Shown piece after piece: positions 39,520 through 45,655 of a DNA stretch of 60,615 bases; the stretch's first letter is position 1, and every line of letters begins with the position of its first letter. The stretch is from Nitrospira sp. (GTDB lineage: Bacteria; Nitrospirota; Nitrospiria; Nitrospirales; Nitrospiraceae), in assembly GCA_016788885.1 (NCBI GenBank), contig JAEURX010000007.1:1-60615 (forward strand), in the 5' to 3' direction. Below the pieces are notes generated by a model. It was not told the origin of the DNA. It saw only the letters and a list, made by a program, of their open reading frames with translations, and made no database searches. The translations under genes and the position numbers were made by a program.

Positions 39520-39759
39520 CTACAAAGCGACCATCGCATCTTGCAAAGTCTTCGTAACTTTCGCGCATATGCCGGCTTCAACCGGGAGATCGATAATATC
39601 GTCTTCCGACACAGTGATAAACTTCCGATTTGAACCTTTGGTCAAAGAAATAAGGAACATACTGTTCGTCGGCTTTGTCGGAATCACCACAGCCACGGAG
39701 GGATCAAGCCCCTTCACGACTTCAAGAAACTTCTGCTTGCCTTCACCCCATTCATCCAT
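39520..39759 (-). CDS. Small hypothetical protein
   Basis: A 79-residue soluble protein with one Cys and no recognised family (MDEWGEGKQKFLEVVKGLDP, ...FLISLTKGSNRKFITVSEDD). It starts 15 nt after the peroxiredoxin stop and ends 24 nt before the MBL-fold gene on the same strand, so it belongs to that operon. Coding status rests on operon position and amino acid composition. Confidence 0.5.
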   Translation of the reverse strand: MDEWGEGKQKFLEVVKGLDPSVAVVIPTKPTNSMFLISLTKGSNRKFITVSEDDIIDLPVEAGICAKVTKTLQDAMVAL

Positions 39760-39774
39760 AAATCCTGCTCCCCA

Positions 39775-40320
39775 CTACATCGCCCCTGCGCCCCCCATAG
39801 GGGCGGAAGCTAATAATTTTTCAACTTCTTGAATAATGACGTCGGCACCGGCCAGTTCCATATTCCCGACACGTTGCCATCTGATTACTCCTCGCTGGTC
39901 AATCACATACACGTTAGGGATAAACTTGCCGCCGCCATAAAGCTTATCGGTGGTCTTACTTGGATCAAGGAGGTAGGGATACGTCACCTTCACAGGGAAC
40001 GCGCTCAAAAATTCACCCACGTCTCGCTTCGAGTTTCCCGATGAATTGATGCCGACGACCGCGATATTTTTCTCAGCCATCGCCTCATACACCTTCTGCA
40101 AATTCGTACCTTGCATCATGCAGGGGTCACAGATATGAAACAGGCCCAAGACCACGACCCTCCCGCGCAATTGCTCAAGCGAGACGACATCGCCAGTGAT
40201 AGACGTGAGCGTAAATGCCGGGGCAGGCTCCCCAACTTTGAAAAACCCGGCAGCGAATGCTACATGGTAGGCCCACAACGGAACCAGTGCCATCGTGAGG
40301 GCAATCAGAACGCGTTTCAT
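39775..40320 (-). CDS. Exported AhpC/TSA-type peroxiredoxin (thioredoxin fold)
   Basis: A 181-residue thioredoxin-fold protein with a signal peptide (MKRVLIALTMALVPLWAYHV, cleavage near AFA). The active site is CDPC in GLFHICDPCMMQG; the pattern of FxVGEPAPAFTLTSITGD and INSSGNSKRDVGEFL fits TlpA/redoxin thiol-disulfide proteins of the periplasm. A Met/Gly-rich end is odd but short. AAGGAGG upstream fixes ATG 40320. It is the first gene of the leftward block 40320 to 36561. Confidence 0.82.
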   Translation of the reverse strand: MKRVLIALTMALVPLWAYHVAFAAGFFKVGEPAPAFTLTSITGDVVSLEQLRGRVVVLGLFHICDPCMMQGTNLQKVYEAMAEKNIAVVGINSSGNSKRDVGEFLSAFPVKVTYPYLLDPSKTTDKLYGGGKFIPNVYVIDQRGVIRWQRVGNMELAGADVIIQEVEKLLASAPMGGAGAM

Positions 40321-40346
40321 CAGGGCCTCCTTCCTCGCAGAAATAC

Positions 40347-40375
40347 AAAGTATCCAACTAGGCGATACTGCCCAA
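40347..40375 (-). promoter_or_regulatory. Candidate promoter of the peroxiredoxin operon
   Basis: On the minus strand TTGGGC (40370-40375) and TACTTT (40347-40352) are 17 nt apart, about 25 nt upstream of the peroxiredoxin start. A perfect 10-bp palindrome lies 27-50 nt further upstream and might be an operator. Hexamers are imperfect, so confidence is moderate. Confidence 0.4.
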
Positions 40376-40401
40376 TTCCAAGCGGCACTAGGCACTACCC
40401 A

Positions 40402-40431
40402 GCATGCTAGGCATCCTAGCATGCGATTTTT
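40402..40431 (+). terminator. Palindromic stem-loop with T-run
   Basis: GCATGCTAGG (40402-40411) and CCTAGCATGC (40415-40424) form a perfect 10-bp stem with a 3-nt loop, followed on the plus strand by GATTTTTTT. That is a textbook intrinsic terminator, but it faces rightward in a gap where both flanking genes run leftward. It may block antisense transcription, terminate leftward transcription inefficiently, or be an operator for the peroxiredoxin promoter. Confidence 0.55.
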
Positions 40432-40510
40432 TTCTGGAGCAACCATTACGGAAGGAAGAACCGAAGACCTGTTGACACAGAATAGGAAGAGGGTTATCGG
40501 CGCCGTGCCA

Positions 40511-41806
40511 TCAACCGGAGCTCTGAAGCCACCGTACAATCACTTCTCGCATGCGAACGAAAAGGACCCACTTGGCGACGAGTCGCTGAATTGGCTTGAG
40601 ACAGTGGGAGAGGATACTCAATTGATGTTGGTAGCGAAACCAGGGCAAAGAGCGATTTACCACGTCGGTCTCGGCCCGACACAACTCTACACCAAGCTTC
40701 CAGCGCTCCCACCGAGAATCTTTGACCATCATATACAGAGCTTCTGCGCAGCTCTCATCAATGCCCTGCTCTGGACTCTTCAGCAACTGCTTGGGCATGG
40801 TCTGCATCAAGGCGGGTATATCCCTGTCTGCCTCGATCTCTTGAGCCACCAGACGTGGCAACGCGGTATCGAATAAGGTCTGCGCCAAACTTAAACCGAG
40901 TAATACTGCCCGTCGACACCTCCACTCCCTTGCCTGAAACAATACCCGGCTCCAGTCCAATGCCGGCCGGCGCCTCACAAGTTCGGCGACGTCGCAAATC
41001 CACTTCAACTGCTCCCAAGCATGTTTGGTCCCATGCACGCACAGCAGGATCAACAAGTCTTCAGGAGCCAGTCCCATCACCGATTTTGTTGGCAAATGTA
41101 CCGGCTTCAGTCTTCCCCGGAACTCTCCTCGGTCAAGCCGGAACCCAAAGTGTTGACGAGCCATCACCCACTGCAGATCGACGGCGACAATACCGTTTCT
41201 CTTCTGAAAAAAATGATAGGGCTCTTCAGACTCCTCTCCCTTCCCGGTATCGCGGCTGGTCAGCTGGTAGCCTTGAGACCACAGAACTTTTCTCGCCTGA
41301 GGAATCGCCTCCTGCTCCACGATCAAATCAATGTCTGCACACTCACGCAGGCTGATATCGCCATAGGCTATCTGCGCAAGTGTCACCCCCTTGAAGGGAA
41401 TCGCTCGTATGCCTTTGGCAGCTAACGCATCGACGAGTGACACGAGTTCTCTTGCTAGGAGCGTGTTCAGAAGCACGTTCGCCTGATTGCGCCGACGAAA
41501 GGCCTCATGAATTGTTGAGGGTACCGCCTTAGGACAGATCGTGACCAAATTGCGATACACCAGCGAGGCTACCCCATGCACCCGTGAAAGCTGCCAAATG
41601 ATGTCCCAATTGATGCCATCAGAAACCAGGTCCCCCACTTCAACGCGGGCGAACTCACTCATCGTCGTTCGTGCACAGAGGACGAGCAAACGCCCCTCCG
41701 CATGCATCCGAGATAAGGCTGTCGACGACTCGCCTCCCTTACGGCCACCAACCCCCATCCGTAGCGATCTCCGACTGACGGATGCAGACCCCGACTGCTG
41801 TCCCAT
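40511..41806 (-). CDS. Nucleotidyltransferase family 5-like RiPP-associated protein
   Basis: A 431-residue protein of the uncharacterised nucleotidyltransferase type (NTP_transf_5-like). The diagnostic block is IPFKGVTLAQIAYGDISLRECADIDLIVEQ (acidic residues D and D in ADIDLIV bind metal). The N-terminus GINWDIIWQLSRVHGVASLVYRNL is also typical. Such proteins recur beside lasso/RiPP B2, PqqD and HprK-like genes and are presumed to nucleotidylate or polyphosphorylate the peptide. The ATG lies 2 nt after the kinase stop (TGAAATG), so translation is coupled. Substrate is inferred from context only. Confidence 0.75.
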   Translation of the reverse strand: MGQQSGSASVSRRSLRMGVGGRKGGESSTALSRMHAEGRLLVLCARTTMSEFARVEVGDLVSDGINWDIIWQLSRVHGVASLVYRNLVTICPKAVPSTIHEAFRRRNQANVLLNTLLARELVSLVDALAAKGIRAIPFKGVTLAQIAYGDISLRECADIDLIVEQEAIPQARKVLWSQGYQLTSRDTGKGEESEEPYHFFQKRNGIVAVDLQWVMARQHFGFRLDRGEFRGRLKPVHLPTKSVMGLAPEDLLILLCVHGTKHAWEQLKWICDVAELVRRRPALDWSRVLFQAREWRCRRAVLLGLSLAQTLFDTALPRLVAQEIEADRDIPALMQTMPKQLLKSPEQGIDESCAEALYMMVKDSRWERWKLGVELCRAETDVVNRSLPWFRYQHQLSILSHCLKPIQRLVAKWVLFVRMREVIVRWLQSSG

Positions 41807-41807
41807 T

Positions 41808-42848
41808 TCAGCTTGGCCTCTTCGTTGAATGTTTGTCTAGGAGGGGCGTCACCAGCCAGGGCAAGTCCATGACGTCACGACCGAAGTGAAGCCGGTAGCA
41901 GTCAGTTTGCTGTACAAGCCGTGCCAATGCTTTGAATTCCTGCCGCGCGATCTCTGGCTCATAGACAAGGAGTGAATGCGGAAGAATCATCTCCAAAGCT
42001 AATGGTTTCGGTAGGGGTTCAAGGCAGCTGTGGGGAGCATCTATAACGGAAGGAAACAGAATAATTCTGGGAGGACAGGGCTGCCCGAGCGGACCGGGAT
42101 ACAGATCCTCCGCGTAGAAGTAACTTTTGGGAATTCCTGGATGGATCACCGCAGAGGGTGCATCACGCAATTCAGGGAAAAACGAGATGGTTTGATTGGT
42201 TACGTTAATTTTTAGCGGATAGGGAAGTAGTTCCACGCCGGTGTCGGTTACCCGAAAGAAGGGATGATCATCGGAGAGGTAGCGATATCCAGATCGCAGC
42301 AACGAGAGGAAGGAAGTCGTTTTCCCCCGCCCACTAAATCCGGGAATCAGCACTCCGTTCCCATTGTATTCGAGAGCCGTCGCATGGAAGGTAAAGACCC
42401 CCCTTCGTTTCAATAGTTCAGTCATGGCGAAATGCACGAAACTATTCCGGATATCCGGCGCCATAATCTCAGGACGCACGAGATACCCCTGCACAGAGAG
42501 AGCGCGGCCATCGATCACCACGAGACCCTCGTCATGAAAGTCAGCAATCAACGCACCGCGATCTGAATAGACATCGCATAACCAGGTGGTTTGACTCCCT
42601 GTACCGATAACGAGGCCGGACCCGCTGTGCAGCAACTGTGCTTCCGGGGAGATCCGTACAGGAATGTCGCTTCGTCGATGAACTGCATCGAACTGCATCA
42701 GCATGCGCTGAGTCGTGAGCGTCTCGCATTTGAAATACCGGAGGAACGACTCCACTGAATGCGCCAACTCAGGTGAGTTCGTCGTGAATGTCATCTTCGT
42801 GTCATGAATAGACAGCGGAATCTCATTCATTGTCGACATCGCACACAT
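41808..42848 (-). CDS. HprK-like kinase of the RiPP cassette
   Basis: A 346-residue kinase related to HPr kinase/phosphorylase. The P-loop is GFSGRGKTTSF (170-180), preceded by FHATALE like the HprK HASAV region and followed by YRYLSDDHPFF like the HprK SDD motif. HprK-like proteins of RiPP clusters (PadeK, ThcoK) phosphorylate Ser in lasso peptides; some are grouped as HPr-rel-A kinases in public family sets, as I recall. GGAG 8 nt upstream supports ATG 42848. It begins 109 nt after the precursor stop and is coupled to the nucleotidyltransferase. Confidence 0.78.
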   Translation of the reverse strand: MCAMSTMNEIPLSIHDTKMTFTTNSPELAHSVESFLRYFKCETLTTQRMLMQFDAVHRRSDIPVRISPEAQLLHSGSGLVIGTGSQTTWLCDVYSDRGALIADFHDEGLVVIDGRALSVQGYLVRPEIMAPDIRNSFVHFAMTELLKRRGVFTFHATALEYNGNGVLIPGFSGRGKTTSFLSLLRSGYRYLSDDHPFFRVTDTGVELLPYPLKINVTNQTISFFPELRDAPSAVIHPGIPKSYFYAEDLYPGPLGQPCPPRIILFPSVIDAPHSCLEPLPKPLALEMILPHSLLVYEPEIARQEFKALARLVQQTDCYRLHFGRDVMDLPWLVTPLLDKHSTKRPS

Positions 42849-42900
42849 TGATCTCGCTCCTTATCAAACGTTCATCTCGCCCAGTGCTCCTTCAGTCGTA

Positions 42901-42935
42901 GCGGGAACTGTCTGCAATTGCAGGCCAGTCCCCGC
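42901..42935 (-). promoter_or_regulatory. Hairpin between RiPP precursor and kinase
   Basis: GCGGGAACTG...CAGTCCCCGC folds into an imperfect hairpin of about 14 bp with an AATT loop, one bulge and one mismatch. It lies just downstream of the precursor stop (42958) and upstream of the kinase start (42848). No T-run follows on the minus strand, so it is probably an mRNA-stabilising or attenuating stem that keeps precursor levels above those of the downstream enzymes, as in many RiPP operons. Confidence 0.5.
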
Positions 42936-42957
42936 CACGCACAAAACGCCTGACTTA

Positions 42958-43071
42958 TTACGCAGGCTGTTGTCCGACTACGCGCGATAATTGAATCGCC
43001 GTTACGTCGCGCAACAACTCGTGTTTCACAAGTTGCGGCTGCACGTACGTCACTTTCTTCTGTTGCTCCAT
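42958..43071 (-). CDS. Lasso-like RiPP precursor peptide (37 residues)
   Basis: A 37-residue peptide too short for standard gene finders. AAAGGAGGTGAG lies 5 nt before ATG 43071, a near-perfect ribosome binding site that overlaps the PqqD stop; two TAA codons end it. Residues 9-24 read YVQPQLVKHELLRDVT, which has the spacing of the lasso leader motif Y-x2-P-x-L...T (Tyr9, Pro12, Leu14, Thr24), except that the usual Gly at +9 is Glu18. Cleavage after Ala25 would leave a 12-residue follower (Ile26-Ala37) with one Ser29 and no Asp or Glu, so a classical lasso macrolactam cannot form. Confidence 0.75.
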   Translation of the reverse strand: MEQQKKVTYVQPQLVKHELLRDVTAIQLSRVVGQQPA

Positions 43072-43076
43072 CCGAC

Positions 43077-43394
43077 TCACCTCCTTTCAGTATGAAGTAA
43101 TCCCTCTTGGCAAAGCTGGTTAATCAGATCCAGGCCGTCCGACTGAGCCCGATCAGGCATCACATCAAAATGTTGAGAAATGGAAGAAAGTACCTGCGCT
43201 AACGAATGACTGCCAGTACATTGTTCCCACACATACGAACCGACAGCATTCAACGTGTAGTAGCGGCCTGTGCTCAGATTGAGCAACACACACTCCCCAT
43301 CAAGAACCGCCCCGTGCACATCTTCGTGATGCACAGGAAACAAGCGGGATAGATCGGCTTGATCCTCAACACAGATAGGTACCTCAACAGACAT
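43077..43394 (-). CDS. PqqD/B1-type RiPP recognition protein
   Basis: A 105-residue stand-alone PqqD-like protein (lasso B1/RRE type) that should bind the leader peptide and present it to the B2 protease. The core AVLDGECVLLNLSTGRYYTLNAVGSYVWEQ and the helix SLAQVLSSISQHFDV match the family. GGAGGTG before ATG 43394 fixes the start. Its stop is 5 nt before the precursor ATG, and its last codons carry the precursor's ribosome binding site. Confidence 0.85.
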   Translation of the reverse strand: MSVEVPICVEDQADLSRLFPVHHEDVHGAVLDGECVLLNLSTGRYYTLNAVGSYVWEQCTGSHSLAQVLSSISQHFDVMPDRAQSDGLDLINQLCQEGLLHTERR

Positions 43395-43726
43395 AGTGCA
43401 CCTCCAGTATCTGCGGGTTCGGCAGAACGCACGTCGTGACAATGCAGGTGGTTCTCTTCCGAACCGGTTCGAGCGAGATGTTGATTCTCAAGAAAGGGCT
43501 CGCTAAATGCCTCTTCACGACTGCAAAGATATCTGGCCATTCACGACTTCTCTATTACCAGTGAGGATGGCTGGCTGGCACTTTAGAGGGGGACACATCC
43601 TGCACCGCGAGTAGCGTGAGTCCAGAAGGCACCAGGCTCACCTTGGCTGGCAGCGCGAGCCTCGCAACACACAACGCAACGGATGACAACCAGATGCTGT
43701 CGGAGAGAGGACTGAAACCAACCAGA
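43395..43726. other. Gap between B2 and PqqD genes with ambiguous open frames
   Basis: A 332-bp stretch inside the RiPP cassette. Directly after the B2 stop a minus-strand frame without a good start encodes a hydrophobic run (SIWLSSVALCVARLALPAKV) ending at about 43550, and short frames from 43540 and about 43525 run into the pqqD start. None has a ribosome binding site and a recognisable family. The stretch may be a decayed gene, a leader, or nothing. Confidence 0.4.
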
Positions 43727-44161
43727 CTATAAGTCCTGGTCGATCTCCGGGGAAACCGAGCGGGGAAACGTGAGAGTTACCGTGAAGGCTTTCCAGTAAG
43801 GGGATGGTTCGAGAAAATCACGATTATTGAGTGTCAGCCACGCATGTCCTTCGAGGTGGTGATCAAGCTTCATCACGCCACAATGAAATTGAACGGGAAT
43901 TCCTGCGCGACAAGCGTAGAAGAAGAGGGTAAGAGCACGCGGGAAACAGTTCCCTTTGGGATGATAAGGAAACATCCCAAGCCACCGATCAAGGTAGTAG
44001 GCCACATCCTCGATGGATGTCTCGCTACCGCATACCGGCACTGGTTTGCAGGCCAGCCAATGGAGCAACCGTTTCAGACTAACCAAGCGCAAGGCTAGTC
44101 GAACTCCACACATGACCAATCCGATGCCGAAGATCAGTCGATATTTTCTGAACAACAGCAT
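43727..44161 (-). CDS. Lasso-type B2 protein (transglutaminase-like leader peptidase)
   Basis: A 144-residue transglutaminase-like cysteine protease of the lasso peptide B2 family, which cuts off the leader. The catalytic Cys72 lies in GNCFPRALTLFF and His106 in LEGHAWLTL; the FLEPSPYW region follows as in the family. An N-terminal hydrophobic stretch (LIFGIGLVMCGVRLALRL) is also common in B2. It begins 63 nt after the purF stop on the same strand with only a weak GAGG upstream and no terminator between, so it may be read from the purine transcript. Confidence 0.85.
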   Translation of the reverse strand: MLLFRKYRLIFGIGLVMCGVRLALRLVSLKRLLHWLACKPVPVCGSETSIEDVAYYLDRWLGMFPYHPKGNCFPRALTLFFYACRAGIPVQFHCGVMKLDHHLEGHAWLTLNNRDFLEPSPYWKAFTVTLTFPRSVSPEIDQDL

Positions 44162-44224
44162 GCCTCAGTCTAACAAGGCATAGAAGGAAGTCCAGACGAT
44201 CTTCTGAAACACCCAGGAATGCGG

Positions 44225-45655
44225 TCAGCGCGACGTTTCAAACAGCCCGAGTTGAAGTTCCTCGGCCCTGGTAAAAGAAATGGGATAGCGCTCAGTAAAA
44301 CAGGCATCGCAATACTGCCCGGGGATACCTGGGGCAGCGCTCACCATGCCGTCGAGGCTCAGATAGGCGAGACTGTCAGCAGTGATGTACTTGCGGATCT
44401 CTTCCCTCGTATGACTGGAGGCGATCAGTTCTTTCTTGGTCGGGGTGTCAATGCCATAGAAGCAGGGAGACACGATCGGCGGTGAGCTGATACGCATATG
44501 CACTTCTTTGGCACCGGCATGGCGCAGCATTTTGACGATTTTTCGACTCGTCGTCCCACGAACTAATGAGTCATCGACCACGACGACTCGCTTGCCTCGG
44601 AGCACCTCGGGAACCGCGTTCAGCTTGACCTTGACCCCGAAGTGACGGATCGACTGCTCCGGCTCGATAAACGTACGCCCGACATAATGATTTCGAATGA
44701 GTCCGGTTTCGAAGGGAAGACCTGACCCTTCGGAATACCCCAGCGCGGCAGGCACTCCCGAATCCGGAACCGGAATCACGATGTCTGCCGATACCCCAGA
44801 CTCCTGTGCGAGCTGCCGCCCAAAAGCCTTACGAATCGAGTACACGGCCCCCCCACCAAAAATGCGACTATCAGGACGGGAAAAATACACAAACTCGAAT
44901 ACGCACATGGCCGGCTTGGTCGGAGCAAAAGGCTTATAACTCGTCACGCCCCGATGATCCAGCACGACCAACTCGCCAGGCTCTATCTCTCGCACGTATT
45001 CGGCATCAAGCAAATCAAATGCACAACTCTCGGAGGCCACGATCCAGGAATCGCGAAAACGTCCCAAGCAGAGCGGCCGAAACCCATGGGGATCCCGGGC
45101 TGCGACAATTCCCTGATCCGTCATGATGACCACGGAGAATGCGCCGCGGACTTGCGTGAGCGAATCGATCACCCGGTCAAGAAGCGTGTCCGCCCGCGAA
45201 TGAGCAATCAGATGAATGATGACCTCGGTGTCTGATGTCGATTGGAAGATTGCACCATAGGCTTCCAGCTCACTGCGGAGCATGGTGGCATTGATGAGAT
45301 TGCCGTTGTGTGCCACCGCAAGATTCCCGAAGGCGAAGTTGACGCTCAGGGGCTGGACATTTTTCAACCCTGCGCCACCCGCCGTCGAATAGCGGTTGTG
45401 CCCAATGGCCATCGTGCCGGGCAACCGTGACAACGCCTGTTGCGAAAAGATATCGGCGACAAGCCCTTGGCCTTTTTCAATGTGAAACTGTTCGCCATCG
45501 TTCGACACGATGCCGGACGCTTCCTGCCCCCGATGCTGAAGCGCATAGAGGCCAAGATAGGCGAGGTTCGCGGCTTCCTTATGACCGTAGATGCCGAAGA
45601 CGGCGCATTCCTCGTGAAGCTTGTCTGAAGCAAACATCGGTAACTCTTTGGCCAT
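44225..45655 (-). CDS. purF: Amidophosphoribosyltransferase
   Basis: PurF, about 476 residues, makes phosphoribosylamine from PRPP and glutamine, the first step of purine synthesis. A propeptide of 16 residues precedes the nucleophile Cys17 in [10 protein letters not shown]; the glutaminase part has HRGQEASGI and NRYSTAGG, and the PRTase part has the PRPP loop [14 protein letters not shown]. It uses Cys ligands typical of Fe-S-containing PurF (late Cys pair in [12 protein letters not shown]). ATG 45655 is chosen; ATG 45637 is an alternative. It follows purL by 11 nt. Confidence 0.96.

Follow-up and report, generated by a model that had tools for sequence, protein, structure and literature searches.

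Lasso-type leader handling without a lasso cyclase in Nitrospira: a cassette that probably makes a linear phosphopeptide

What might a lasso-type leader recognition protein and leader protease do in a gene set that contains no lasso cyclase? This question is raised by a stretch of 60,615 nucleotides from Nitrospira sp. (contig 7, JAEURX010000007.1, of the 3.92-Mb genome assembly GCA_016788885.1; hereafter the window), in which five minus-strand genes occupy positions 40511-44161, with purF on one side and a thioredoxin-like gene (TRX) on the other. They encode a lasso-type leader protease (B2), a PqqD-like protein (B1) that serves as the recognition element (RRE) for a ribosomally synthesized and post-translationally modified peptide (RiPP), a precursor of 37 residues, MEQQKKVTYVQPQLVKHELLRDVTAIQLSRVVGQQPA, an HprK-like kinase (K), and a family-5 nucleotidyltransferase (N), all lying where the initial annotation, made from the sequence alone, had placed them. 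That annotation proposed recognition and removal of a leader and phosphorylation of a linear peptide, and this proposal is supported by the families to which B1, B2, and K belong, by an invariant serine in the precursor, and by the failure to find a lasso cyclase in the genus. We put the probability that the cassette makes a linear phosphopeptide through lasso-type leader handling without a lasso cyclase at roughly 0.7.

A lasso cyclase was found neither in the window, as the initial annotation had remarked, nor in the cassette, and in none of 29 genomes of the genus that includes Candidatus Nitrospira defluvii (hereafter the N. defluvii genus) does any gene score above the cut-off of the lasso cyclase model NF033535. 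Asn_synthase-like genes are as common in those of the 29 genomes that lack the cassette as in those that carry it, so that the co-conserved cyclase named in the initial annotation as evidence against its reading did not appear. Dozens of Nitrospirota genomes carry related sets whose cassettes are likewise free of a cyclase, and no Asn_synthase gene lies inside any related cassette examined; at one locus (L070), such a gene stands ~4 kb from B1 and best matches the type associated with XrtA.

The cassette is maintained as a unit within the genus. The order B2-B1-precursor-K-N, which the initial annotation had suggested looking for in other Nitrospira genomes, is kept, and the complete set stands in a single order in most of the genus loci initially examined. 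The precursor is present in 20 of the 29 genomes and an intact B2 in 19, all of which also have the precursor; the opposite outcome, a precursor missing where relatives keep B1 and B2, had been named beforehand as a reason to abandon the proposal. All five genes are under purifying selection, with a mean ratio of nonsynonymous to synonymous change (pN/pS) across the genus of 0.31 for B2, 0.36 for B1, 0.32 for the precursor, 0.24 for K, and 0.23 for N. Coupled decay is seen in one genome (G018), where B2, B1, the precursor, and K are broken together, and remnants persist in another (G306).

No NCBIfam model matches the window precursor. Both its translation site and its leader are conserved. 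A full Shine-Dalgarno sequence, AAGGAGGTGA, stands ahead of the precursor, overlaps the stop codon of B1, and is invariant in six aligned members of the genus; the precursor starts ~6 nt after the B1 stop in the window, and the spacing is similar in most related clusters. A leader pattern that fixes Tyr, Pro, His, and neighbouring residues, and does not extend to the core, yielded 96 distinct precursors. They share the leader YxxPx[L/V]xxHELLRD[I/V]T[A/G], in which the Tyr and Pro of YxxP are found in 96/96 precursors, the conservation of the leader Tyr, Pro, and His being partly by construction because the collecting pattern fixed these residues. The register of YxxP is that of Tyr(-17)/Pro(-14) in lasso leaders (PMC10368454). 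The cores are hypervariable, and in them a hydroxyl residue at core position 3 (position 4 in the N. defluvii genus) is far commoner than at neighbouring positions: Ser occupies position 3 in 49/49 precursors of the TA type, Tyr or Ser does so in 25/27 of the TG type, and Ser occupies position 4 in all 20 precursors of the N. defluvii genus, where it corresponds to Ser29 in the window. Phosphorylation of a C-terminal Ser, as in paeninodin, was considered and rejected, as only 6 of 95 precursors end in Ser. The window core, IQLSRVVGQQPA if the leader is cut after Ala25 as predicted, has no Gly, Ala, Ser, or Cys at position 1 and no Asp or Glu at positions 7-9 and is not lasso-like.

The proteins that would handle this leader are likewise of the lasso kind. 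B2 matches Transglut_core3 at 59.5 bits and the NCBIfam model lasso_biosyn_B2 at 44.6 bits, above its cut-off of 33, and the Cys72 and His106 singled out by the initial annotation are, together with Glu118, invariant across 14 aligned sequences; a search against the sequences of solved structures gave no match for B2 or for N. B1 matches PqqD at 64.3 bits, and its best solved relatives are lasso RREs, with TbiB1 (5v1u) first and TfuB1 (6jx3) also among them. LppB binds its leader via Asn33/Asp70 (PMC13381572), and in B1, Asn49 is invariant and Asp86 nearly so; judging from the spacing, which is 37 residues in both proteins, these residues may be equivalent. The cassette thus combines a lasso-type RRE, a lasso-type protease, and a YxxPxL leader with Thr(-2).

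K matches HprK_rel_A (TIGR04352) at 60.1 bits, below the cut-off of 200, which places it outside HPr-rel-A as that model delimits it. Its structural model (mean predicted local distance difference test score, pLDDT, 87.6) matches HprK (1ko7; Z 13.2, 139 residues) and PEPCK (1j3b; Z 14.7, 278 residues), and we are confident in assigning the modelled protein an HprK/PEPCK fold. The spacing of its motif, His155-Lys176-Asp193-Asp194, equals that of His148-Lys169-Asp186-Asp187 in BsfK, the kinase of the bsf lasso cluster of Bradymonas sediminis, which phosphorylates Ser3 in a reaction that B1 speeds (PMC10368454). A plasmid search with K returned a single weak match, to a cyanobacterial HPr kinase. 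N matches NTP_transf_5 at 227.7 bits, and its model (pLDDT 85.2) resembles polymerase-beta-type nucleotidyltransferases, including MenT1 (Z 12.7), ANT(2'')-Ia (Z ~11), and, lower, FKRP (Z 7.4), a fold that does not give the substrate. Its closest characterised relative, PsmN, is linked to the addition of a hexose to phosphoserine in pseudomycoidin (PMC9266682).

A further line of evidence comes from the fate of the two enzymes when the peptide is gone: next to a precursor, the catalytic residues of K and N are retained, whereas several lineages that lack a precursor have lost them. Five genomes of a different genus (L066, L071, and L114-L116) have K at the purF-TRX place with no precursor, B1, B2, or N beside it, and this K carries both His155Tyr and Lys176Arg; judged by these substitutions, the five K-like proteins are pseudokinases. 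The K of a further K-only locus (L127) has His155Asp. N adjacent to K keeps all three Asp in every case compared except L086, where N sits 342 nt from K. Among genus members lacking precursor, B2, and K (loci L178-L180, L183, and L184), N is retained alone in G112 and G303 and with B1 in G208, G299, and G307; four of the five, G208, G303, G299, and G307, have Asp160Glu together with Asp210Asn or Asp210Lys. After a recent loss, active sites can still be intact, as in the N of G018, G245, and G306. No precursor was detected in L178-L186 or in the K-only loci by tblastn, by reading of small open reading frames, or by the leader pattern and motif fragments, although a strongly diverged precursor could be missed; in the leader-pattern scan, the positive controls L036 and L187 gave their known precursors. 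In sister genera, second copies of N that adjoin TRX behind fatty-acid-hydroxylase-like genes (L048, L051, L052, and L126) carry Asp160Val and Asp210Glu.

From these data, a route to the product can be proposed, in which every chemical step is suggested by analogy with the BsfK, LppK, and PsmN systems. The precursor would be made just after B1 from the strong ribosome site seen in the sequence, with translation of the two genes probably coupled. B1 would bind the leader through Tyr9 and Pro12, as the motif register and homology suggest, and K would phosphorylate Ser29, possibly more than once, consistent with the invariance of this residue, with the kinase motif, and with the demonstrated action of BsfK and LppK on Ser3. 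N may attach a nucleotidyl, sugar, or sugar-phosphate group to the phosphate, which is the least certain step, and B2 is predicted to cut after Thr24-Ala25 and thereby release a linear 12-mer. The features concerned are collected in Table 1.

Table 1. Coordinates of the cassette genes and of predicted sites in the precursor (window positions).
Feature	Position	Strand	Basis
B2, lasso-type cysteine leader protease, 144 aa	43727..44161	-	PF13471, NF033537; Cys72, His106, Glu118
B1, PqqD-like RRE, 105 aa	43077..43394	-	PF05402
Shine-Dalgarno AAGGAGGTGA of precursor, overlapping B1 stop	43077..43086	-	Read directly in sequence
Precursor peptide, 37 aa	42958..43071	-	In 20/29 genomes of genus; pN/pS 0.32
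Leader YxxP motif (Tyr9, Pro12)	43036..43047	-	In 96/96 precursors, largely fixed by collecting pattern
Thr24-Ala25, predicted leader end, Thr at -2	42997..43002	-	Predicted; position from lasso B2 systems (PMC10368454)
Ser29, predicted phosphorylation site	42985..42987	-	Ser in 20/20 precursors of N. defluvii genus
K, HprK-like kinase, 346 aa	41808..42848	-	His155, Lys176, Asp193, Asp194; TIGR04352 weak; fold model
N, NTP_transf_5 nucleotidyltransferase, 431 aa	40511..41806	-	PF14907; Lys139, Asp158, Asp160, Asp210

Several observations weigh against this proposal. If the leader is cut after Ala25, Ser29 is core position 4 and not 3, and a cut one residue later would bring it to 3. K scores below the cut-off of every named kinase model. 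The five genomes with altered K form one clade in the kinase tree, and the four with altered N may share one origin, so that few independent events of active-site loss are represented. N is under purifying selection in genus members without the precursor, B2, and K (pairwise omega 0.14 to 0.29), and in one of these (G112) it keeps the three Asp; N may therefore have a role outside the peptide. Lastly, deletion of lppN, the transferase gene of the system discussed next, altered no detectable product (PMC13381572). With this result, and with PsmN linked to addition of a hexose, the nucleotidylation that the initial annotation had set beside phosphorylation stands as a possibility, while the phosphorylation itself is supported.

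The closest known kind to the Nitrospira family is the linear polyphosphorylated peptides (LPPs), reported in May 2026 from the lpp cluster of Paenibacillus alginolyticus and said to occur only in Bacillota (Popov et al. 2026, PMC13381572). The lpp cluster encodes an RRE, an NTP transferase, and an MsbA-like exporter, with no cyclase, and LppK phosphorylates Ser3 of a linear RiPP (PMC13381572). Both families have a discrete RRE, a YxxP leader, an HprK-like kinase, and an NTP transferase and lack a macrolactam cyclase, and the MsbA-like exporter has its counterpart in sister genera of the N. defluvii genus. The LPP leader, YxxPxVLxHQxIxFETxxS, shares the register of its Tyr, Pro, His, and Thr with the Nitrospira leader, and the modified core Ser3 of the LPPs corresponds to the near-invariant hydroxyl at core position 3 in the Nitrospira family. 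However, LPPs use a signal peptidase resembling SpI, LppS, whereas the Nitrospira set uses a lasso-type B2 and has no LppS-like gene among the cassette genes; the N. defluvii genus has no orthologue of the exporter, and the sister clusters, unlike the lpp cluster, add ATP-grasp and hydroxylase genes. As LppS and the exporter, two defining features of LPPs, are lacking, we call the Nitrospira set LPP-like, and it looks like a new branch of an already described kind of linear phospho-RiPP. The claim of the initial annotation that the set was undescribed went too far as regards the kind, cyclase-free sets with an RRE, an HprK-like kinase, and an NTP transferase being known from Bacillota as LPPs, and stands for the version with B2, on which we found no paper in the open-licence literature searched.

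Other known systems share parts of this composition. The bsf cluster has A, B1, B2, K, and N, with the same leader register and kinase motif spacing, but it also has a cyclase, BsfC, and a transporter, BsfD, and Ile at -2 in place of Thr. Pseudomycoidin and paeninodin (reviewed in PMC9266682) likewise involve an HprK-like kinase with His-Lys-Asp-Asp, and pseudomycoidin a nucleotidyltransferase as well, but both have a cyclase and are modified at a C-terminal Ser that is not conserved in the Nitrospira family. ATP-grasp genes, known from graspetides (TIGR04187, MvdC/MvdD), are absent from the window cassette but present in TG-type sister loci, and the Nitrospira leaders are of the lasso/RRE kind. 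According to RRE-Finder, only about half of ~8,000 proteins of the discrete lasso RRE model co-occur with a leader peptidase and a cyclase (PMC7470986); cyclase-free sets may therefore be more common.

When named genomes were scanned for the kinase, the matches were almost exclusively in Nitrospirota, the exceptions being a record with the label Nitrospinota, two from Methylomirabilota, and two weak matches in WOR-3. In sister genera, at the purF-TRX place or beside a PhoD-like gene, the clusters hold one or more precursors, B1, K, N, B2, and an ABC exporter with MsbA among its best-matching models; this gene of ~600 aa had been a candidate cyclase and was rejected as such once identified as the exporter. 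The N. defluvii genus yielded no orthologue of it (31% identity at best, elsewhere), and the cassette of this genus also has neither the ATP-grasp nor the hydroxylase genes of the sister clusters. Loci with TG-type precursors contain an ATP-grasp gene in 15/15 cases and a fatty-acid-hydroxylase-like gene in 14/15, against 0/36 for both in TA-only loci, counts that are not independent because the loci are related by descent. The ATP-grasp proteins match TIGR04187 and MvdC/MvdD below the cut-offs. In the kinase tree, the kinases of TG loci, TA loci, and the N. defluvii genus form separate groups, although the genus and the TA group are joined by a weak branch. Beside TG-type precursors, a distant cluster (L072 and L120) has an ATP-grasp gene and a partner, together with genes for a GMC oxidoreductase and a gluconate dehydrogenase subunit 3. 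In Methylomirabilota, one cluster (L129:91-4554) encodes a radical SAM/SPASM protein along with B1, B2, K, and N, and a possible precursor in it ends in KQPYTKPTLTKHKPLRDITAAAPSGQPG.

A broader and more tentative proposal, which we hold at rather less than even odds, is that Nitrospirota have a separate RiPP class with one leader and one modified hydroxyl, in which a constant kinase and transferase pair works on the third core residue (Ser, or in the TG type Tyr), cyclising enzymes (ATP-grasp, or radical SAM in Methylomirabilota) are optional, and the class is reduced, in the N. defluvii genus, to a linear phosphopeptide that is not exported. The TA/TG split suggests that ring-forming enzymes are swapped on one leader system. 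If the linear phosphopeptide reading is correct, linear phospho-RiPPs extend from Bacillota to abundant nitrite oxidisers, and the lasso leader protease B2 works without a lasso cyclase. Candidatus Nitrospira defluvii itself (FP929003.1) carries the cassette, which makes the proposal testable, and the invariant hydroxyl and the loss of active sites in K and N where the precursor is gone yield sharp predictions.

The absence of a sister-type exporter from the N. defluvii genus implies that the product may have an intracellular role or exit by another route, and it also gives room for two unlikely alternatives. The first, which sees the peptide as part of a regulatory or intracellular module with K and N and not as a secreted natural product, would also accommodate the survival of catalytically altered K and N without a precursor; it fits poorly with the retention of a leader protease and an RRE together with the precursor, and with the exporters and hypervariable cores of sister clusters, which are typical of secreted RiPPs. 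The second, slightly less probable still, is that the cassette is a degenerating relic of the larger sister-genus clusters and makes no product. Besides the missing exporter, ATP-grasp, and hydroxylase genes, its breakage or loss in several genus members would be expected of a relic, but most members have all five genes intact, and these are under purifying selection.

Two further readings appear very improbable. The genome does hold two full-length Asn_synthase genes, and only two, one of which might act in trans as the cyclase of a cryptic lasso pathway; both lie on another contig and match the XrtA/PEP-CTERM amidotransferase model best, under its cut-off, on which ground they were rejected as lasso cyclases, and the core has neither a ring donor nor a ring acceptor, in addition to the absence of any gene above the lasso cyclase cut-off across the genus and the even spread of Asn_synthase-like genes noted above. 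That N modifies the serine directly while K acts on something else has in its favour the intact nucleotidyltransferase site and fold of N, but the characterised kinases of K's type have a core Ser as their target, and the hexose addition to which PsmN is linked takes place on a Ser that is already phosphorylated (PMC9266682).

As for regulatory elements around the cassette, an Rfam scan of window positions 39700-45000 found no RNA family, and scans for promoters and terminators gave 2 matches against 2.8 expected and 5 against 3.4 expected, respectively. Between N and the thioredoxin-like gene, on the plus strand at window positions 40402-40424, lies a terminator-like palindrome followed by a run of T.

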